63,634 nt of DNA from a virus: IMG/VR virus record IMGVR_UViG_3300030109_005543, positions 1-63,634 of that record; one strand, given 5' to 3'. Of the stretch, positions 7,216 to 7,675 are shown in pieces (positions within the stretch are counted from its first letter, which is position 1; each line of letters starts with the position of its first letter). A model generated the notes under the pieces. That model was not told the origin of the DNA, did not search any database, and was given only the letters and a program-made list of their open reading frames with translations. The translations under genes were made by a program, and so were the position numbers.

Positions 7216-7554
7216 ATGTCAAACCCTAGTACAGAAAAGGGTTTTAGCAGAAACAAGTCATTATCCAACAAGCTTCGCAAAGAGGGCAAATCCTCTGAGT
7301 CGTTTGAGATAATGCTATCTGCATTAACCCTCGAAGAAGTTATAGGACTTAAGCTAGAATGCTCCATGCGACTCACTAATGGTAAGTTGTATGGCTTTAA
7401 CCTTTGGTCAAAAATAGTTAATATAGCTAAAGAAGCATTGTATAATGCTACTGTTAGTGTAGCTGATACGAATGTTGAAATAAGAAGGATCCTTGGAATT
7501 AACCAAAGTTCGCTTGTTGAGATGAAGAAGAAGTTCAACATAGACAGAGAATAA
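7216..7554 (+). CDS. Small protein with Fis-like helix-turn-helix at C-terminus
   Basis: 112 aa. The C-terminal 45 residues (IVNIAKEALYNATVSVADT, then VEIRRILGINQSSLVEMKK) follow the Fis/NtrC-type helix-turn-helix layout: a long helix, a short one, LGI turn, recognition helix. The N-terminal part is basic and polar and the middle is helical. A DNA-binding role, perhaps as a transcriptional regulator or a packaging-site binder, is suggested by the fold pattern only. It is the last gene before the tmRNA-like RNA. Confidence 0.55.
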   Translation: MSNPSTEKGFSRNKSLSNKLRKEGKSSESFEIMLSALTLEEVIGLKLECSMRLTNGKLYGFNLWSKIVNIAKEALYNATVSVADTNVEIRRILGINQSSLVEMKKKFNIDRE

Positions 7555-7593
7555 ACTATTCTACTTTCTGTGTCAAGCACTATTTTGTAAAAG

Positions 7594-7675
7594 GGGGGTG
7601 GTTTGGGTTTCGACTGGGATTAAAACCTGCAATGGCAGTCTCAGGACCACGGTTCGACTCCGTGCACCTCCACCA
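7594..7675 (+). ncRNA. Minimal tmRNA-like RNA (tRNA-like domain without tag region)
   Basis: An 82-nt tRNA-like fold. Acceptor stem GGGGGTG (7594-7600) pairs over seven positions with CACCTCC (7665-7671), followed by A and an encoded CCA (7673-7675). The T-arm is canonical: CACGG (7648-7652), loop TTCGACT, CCGTG (7660-7664). The 5' side reads TGGGTTTCGACTGGGAT with no D-stem, the layout of the tmRNA D-loop, not of a tRNA. The third base pair is G7596-T7669, the G3-U70 pair recognised by alanyl-tRNA synthetase. No 7-nt anticodon loop can be formed; only a short hairpin (CTGC 7627-7630 with GCAG 7635-7638, or CCTG 7626-7629 with CAGG 7642-7645) joins the halves. There is no room for a tag frame or pseudoknots. 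Confidence 0.7.

Follow-up and report, generated by a model that had tools for sequence, protein, structure and literature searches.

A TLD-only tmRNA encoded by a T4-like phage belongs to a large family of viral mini-tmRNAs

The plus strand of a 63,634-base virus record (the window, by which we mean the whole stretch of DNA analysed) encodes at positions 7594–7675 an 82-nt tmRNA made up of the tRNA-like domain (TLD) and a short P2 hairpin. The gene scores 67.0 bits against the Rfam tmRNA model RF00023 (cut-off 47; E = 6e-24) and is the sole tmRNA match above cut-off in a search of the whole record. The alignment uses both model ends, from position 1 to 374, and deletes 306 model positions; cmscan retained the tmRNA model for this segment within its clan. 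ARAGORN called five ordinary tRNAs elsewhere in the window and none at 7594–7675, where the D-stem and anticodon arm of a tRNA-Ala cloverleaf were likewise not found.

The window encodes a baseplate wedge protein of T4-like phages. Another of its proteins shares 40% identity with a protein of Melnitz and HTVC008M, and we take the source to be a marine virus of bacteria. The mini-tmRNA gene lies between same-strand open reading frames, one ending at 7554 and the next starting at about 7685. A sigma70-like promoter, TTGACA-N17-TATNNT, is present on the minus strand at 7548–7576 and points antisense into the upstream genes. It has a counterpart upstream of the mini gene in five other loci (L016, L020, L021, L029 and L032) and was judged by eye to be conserved among relatives, the intergenic DNA around it having diverged.

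The RNA exhibits the features of the tmRNA TLD. Its acceptor stem contains seven pairs, GGGGGTG (7594–7600) with CACCTCC, in which G3 (7596) and U70 (7669) form the alanine identity pair; the 3' strand, the discriminator A73 and the encoded CCA together span 7665–7675. The T-arm, CACGG TTCGACT CCGTG, occupies 7648–7664, and its stem pairs 1–3 vary with compensation among relatives. The deformed D-region at 7601–7613 (GTTTGGGTTTCGA), which is of the tmRNA type and forms the SmpB-contacting part, reads GGGTTTCGAC in the sequence and in the Rfam alignment. It fits the RF00023 consensus, with the stem-less element GGTTTCGAC and a GGAC junction as in tmRNA. The first G of this junction (7644) pairs with C7614 and the remainder lies at 7645–7647; GGAC or GGA[TAG] is found in 154 of the 164 family members listed. 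The two halves of the TLD are joined by about 31 nt, consisting of a P2 stem of eight pairs (5' strand CTGGGATT, 7614–7621; 3' strand AGTCTCAG, 7637–7644) and a small apical hairpin. The apical loop AAAACCTGCAATGGC (7622–7636), an A-rich bulge with a small CC/GG hairpin, replaces the whole mRNA-like region. With these model positions deleted and a loop of only 15 nt, the window RNA has neither a tag reading frame nor pseudoknots. A first-pass annotation made from the sequence had described a tag-less phage RNA without pseudoknots, with this acceptor stem, G3-U70 pair, encoded CCA and T-arm and with a D-region typical of tmRNA rather than tRNA, and had proposed the Rfam and ARAGORN searches; the features that it described are borne out. 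Its estimate of a join of about 30 bases was close in length, but the join is not unstructured.

Thermodynamic folding gives a z-score of -1.2 and places the TLD fold at -26.6 kcal/mol, compared to -29.4 kcal/mol for a minimum free energy structure that differs from the TLD. Single-sequence folding is thus weak evidence for the TLD, and the real support is covariation among relatives. Apart from TTCGAC.GG, the T-arm core and CCA, our first pattern for viral contigs left the sequence open, position 70 included. It returned 41 viral loci, 28 of them genuine short tmRNA-like genes with 20 distinct sequences, and 13 chance or ordinary tRNA matches, which were rejected. In wider scans, the CCA requirement was dropped and the D and T motifs were loosened, and a match was kept if it had A73 and could form six or all seven of the acceptor pairs and four or all five of the T pairs. 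The filtered pattern scans of viral contigs yielded at least 165 distinct sequences at a minimum of 219 loci. After one artefact of the acceptor filter (L069:373) had been taken out before the statistics, at least 164 distinct mini-tmRNAs in at least 51 clusters at 75% identity were left. TTCGAC belonged to the search patterns; relatives found by similarity also keep it, BRock with TTTTGAC.

The mini-tmRNAs are 63–91 nt long, mostly 80–83 nt (112 of 165 listed), and a scan for larger central gaps gave one good example, of 108 nt. In a smaller class of 63–70 nt (L013, L059, L067, L141, L161, L184, L244 and L268), P2 is capped by a small loop of 2–7 nt, compared to 15 nt in the window RNA; this class is close in form to the TLD construct from SmpB crystallography. 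A loop motif resembling a stop codon was rejected as a shared feature, as many members are without it. Among 84,980 species genomes, there were 24 chromosomal matches and only two loci of the full mini form, one on a Prochlorococcus single-cell contig and identical to the viral locus L023, the other in a Parafrankia prophage that encodes a terminase and a portal. Two further chromosomal sequences pass the acceptor filter and were not counted, their discriminator being G. The RpAliso match was set aside, as were several from Xanthomonas, Stenotrophomonas, Mycobacterium and Gordonia: these are full-length or permuted tmRNAs, or isolated 3' ends.

Both stems covary. Among the 164 listed sequences, acceptor pairs 4–7 are paired in 656 of 656 cells, against 395 ± 9 with 3' strands exchanged between sequences, a figure that is uncorrected for relatedness and inflated by the acceptor filter (6 of 7). 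P2, which was unfiltered, is paired at positions 2–7 in 884 of 984 cells, against 426 ± 14 with partners exchanged and 301–416 if the strands are slid by one or two positions, again without correction for relatedness. The 51 clusters alone give 204/204 against 108 for the acceptor stem and 263/306 against 140 for P2. Acceptor pairs 1–3 are always G-C, G-C and G-U among the 164 listed, all scans but the first having required T70. In the first scan, which demanded neither base, G3-U70 is present in 20 of 20 distinct genuine members, and position 3 is G, never A, in all 164 listed, although no pattern fixed it. A scan demanding a base other than T at position 70 gave two matches, neither of which passed the acceptor filter. 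Across the seven contigs nearest to the window, identity is 88–98% in the RNA and about 70–89% in the flanking DNA; the downstream neighbours of the gene differ in one of them. The comparison with related phages that the first-pass annotation had called for therefore shows a conserved RNA with its acceptor pairing kept. Because both stems carry compensatory changes and the gene is more conserved than its flanks, the RNA is not decayed, as that annotation had argued from the intact stems; the tag-less form is maintained by selection in many phages and is not a relic.

Carriers include T4-like, N4-like and HK97-type phages. L049 encodes an N4-like RNA polymerase, L011 an internal virion protein, and L083/L119 represent the Parafrankia prophage, with HK97-type terminase, portal and integrase. 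The mini gene often lies inside tRNA arrays. Cultured carriers are the Streptomyces phages LuckySocke, GiJojo, pSt2308 and BRock and the Stenotrophomonas virus Jojan60, in each of which the RNA is unannotated. Predicted hypothetical proteins that overlap the mini-tmRNA in GiJojo (gene 44; L295) and Jojan60 (UPU15879.1; L297) are probably misannotations. Streptomyces phage Alone3 carries a mutated mini-tmRNA (L129:1456–1535) with the D-region GGCACGAC and two mismatches in the T-stem, in a stretch that otherwise matches LuckySocke at 97.6% identity, and thus offers a natural loss of function for comparison. Since this copy is mutated and its T-stem broken, Alone3 at least seems able to do without the gene. 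SmpB was not found in 43 records, nor a full-length tmRNA over cut-off in 36 or a permuted tmRNA over cut-off in 23, these records being mostly fragments; host partners must therefore be used. We also observed full-length or permuted tmRNAs, left unannotated in GenBank, in the Xanthomonas phages Rb1 and XacN1, Stenotrophomonas phage QDWS359, Gordonia phage GMA2 and Ruegeria phage RpAliso (L121, L122, L123, L126 and L045). GMA2 has in addition a Pistol ribozyme match above cut-off (L126:1842–1898), and XacN1 a partial GOLLD RNA match that is below the gathering score and clipped by the locus end (L122:2814–3037).

A 'TLD only' tmRNA was described in mycobacteriophage DS6A (Mao et al. 2009, as cited in passages of PMC4131195 and PMC11915505), and the class named from it has been entered in the tmRNA database papers; the first-pass annotation made no reference to this kind. 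The window RNA is likewise a phage gene with a TLD and no mRNA-like region, a likeness drawn from the description of the DS6A gene and not from its sequence. While DS6A was reported as one phage, the form seen here occurs in many unrelated phages and has a conserved P2 hairpin. The kind is thus already known from DS6A; what is new is the breadth, the covarying architecture and the finding that every member retains the alanine identity pair. Literature searches, which covered few subscription journals, did not find the TLD-only tmRNA described as a widespread phage family. The window RNA shares the acceptor stem with G3-U70, the deformed D-arm, the T-arm and the base of P2 with the bacterial one-piece tmRNA (RF00023, ssrA), but is 82 nt rather than about 350 nt long and lacks the mRNA-like region, tag and pseudoknots. 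The tmRNAs of Melnitz, RpAliso and Bxz1, full-length or two-piece, are also phage-encoded; in contrast to the minis, they keep the tag-encoding part. A tag frame is also absent from the CDS-less plastid tmRNAs of Mallomonadaceae (about 65 bp) and from jakobid and oomycete mitochondrial tmRNAs. However, these arose by reductive evolution beside an organelle-targeted SmpB, whereas the window RNA is viral and acts in a cell expected to have a full tmRNA.

The TLD binds SmpB, AlaRS and EF-Tu according to the literature. A DS6A-like TLD-only molecule strongly inhibits tmRNA, perhaps by SmpB titration and whether or not it can be charged (Mao et al. 2009, as relayed in PMC4131195), and in vitro a TLD fragment with SmpB produces polyalanine even if template mRNA is absent (Shimizu and Ueda 2006, as relayed in PMC3929946). 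On account of these two results, competition with host tmRNA is the most likely role. We put the probability at roughly 0.55 that the RNA is a phage-encoded, alanylated TLD-only tmRNA that rivals host tmRNA without tagging. During infection, the mini-tmRNA would be processed like a tRNA and charged with alanine by host AlaRS. Host SmpB and EF-Tu would bind it, so that host tmRNA would face a competitor both for SmpB and for stalled ribosomes. Without a resume codon or tag frame, the nascent chain would stay untagged. The RNA may thus act as a dominant-negative brake on host trans-translation or as a bypass of it, and phage proteins and mRNAs would be spared tagging and decay. Titration needs no charging, yet the alanine identity pair is present in every natural mini, which suggests that a charged RNA enters the ribosome; plain SmpB titration does not alone account for this universal pair. 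Once there, the charged mini could be a dead-end competitor or a tag-free rescuer or tailer. SmpB titration, tag-free ribosome entry and a block of trans-translation, all raised in the first-pass annotation, are candidate functions in this phage.

The second of these outcomes is a tentative alternative to competition. Ala-mini-tmRNA with SmpB would actively accept the nascent chain in a stalled ribosome, leading to drop-off with an untagged product or, with further Ala-mini-tmRNAs, to an untemplated alanine tail. The retention of G3-U70 in every listed member points to charging as needed, the polyalanine synthesis just cited supplies an in vitro precedent, and the 63–70 nt class closely resembles the TLD fragment co-crystallized with SmpB. 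It is more doubtful still that phages of many lineages go beyond SmpB titration and use an alanylated mini-tmRNA to redirect host trans-translation, so that ribosomes are rescued tag-free and alanine is added without a template, as a viral counterpart of Ala-tailing.

It is unlikely that the tRNA-like fold serves only as a recruitment site for RNase P and 3' processing enzymes, which would then cleave a polycistronic phage transcript. The position between same-strand genes in the window and the frequent occurrence within tRNA arrays are consistent with such a processing or punctuation element, but it would need neither G3-U70 nor a tmRNA-specific D-region nor the GGAC junction. Still less probable is a function outside trans-translation, either AlaRS titration, the least likely of the functional options raised by the first-pass annotation, or service as a decoy for host defences that target RNA, such as tRNA or tmRNA nucleases. 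The alanine identity pair and the tRNA-like fold would suit both, but the SmpB-contacting D-region would be superfluous, and the RNA has no anticodon loop in need of protection. Although phages integrate into tmRNA genes, and Halomonas phage H4907 has a lone tmRNA 3' end near the phage end (L298:703–830), likely an attachment-site copy, a decayed tmRNA or integration remnant is very improbable here: covariation already contradicts it, both halves and all stems are intact with compensatory changes, the size classes are sharp with one good intermediate only, the window has both RNA ends and no tyrosine integrase, and such an integrase occurs in 3 of 29 carrier records, never adjoining the mini gene.

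Trans-translation is near universal in bacteria. What had been one peculiar gene of a mycobacteriophage is now a large family of viral RNAs overlooked by standard annotation. Its invariant alanine identity pair implies a role for charging that simple titration would not predict, and with carriers in culture on tractable hosts the function can be tested directly. Mini-tmRNAs are a common viral tool and probably serve to block or divert the way in which the host rescues stalled ribosomes.
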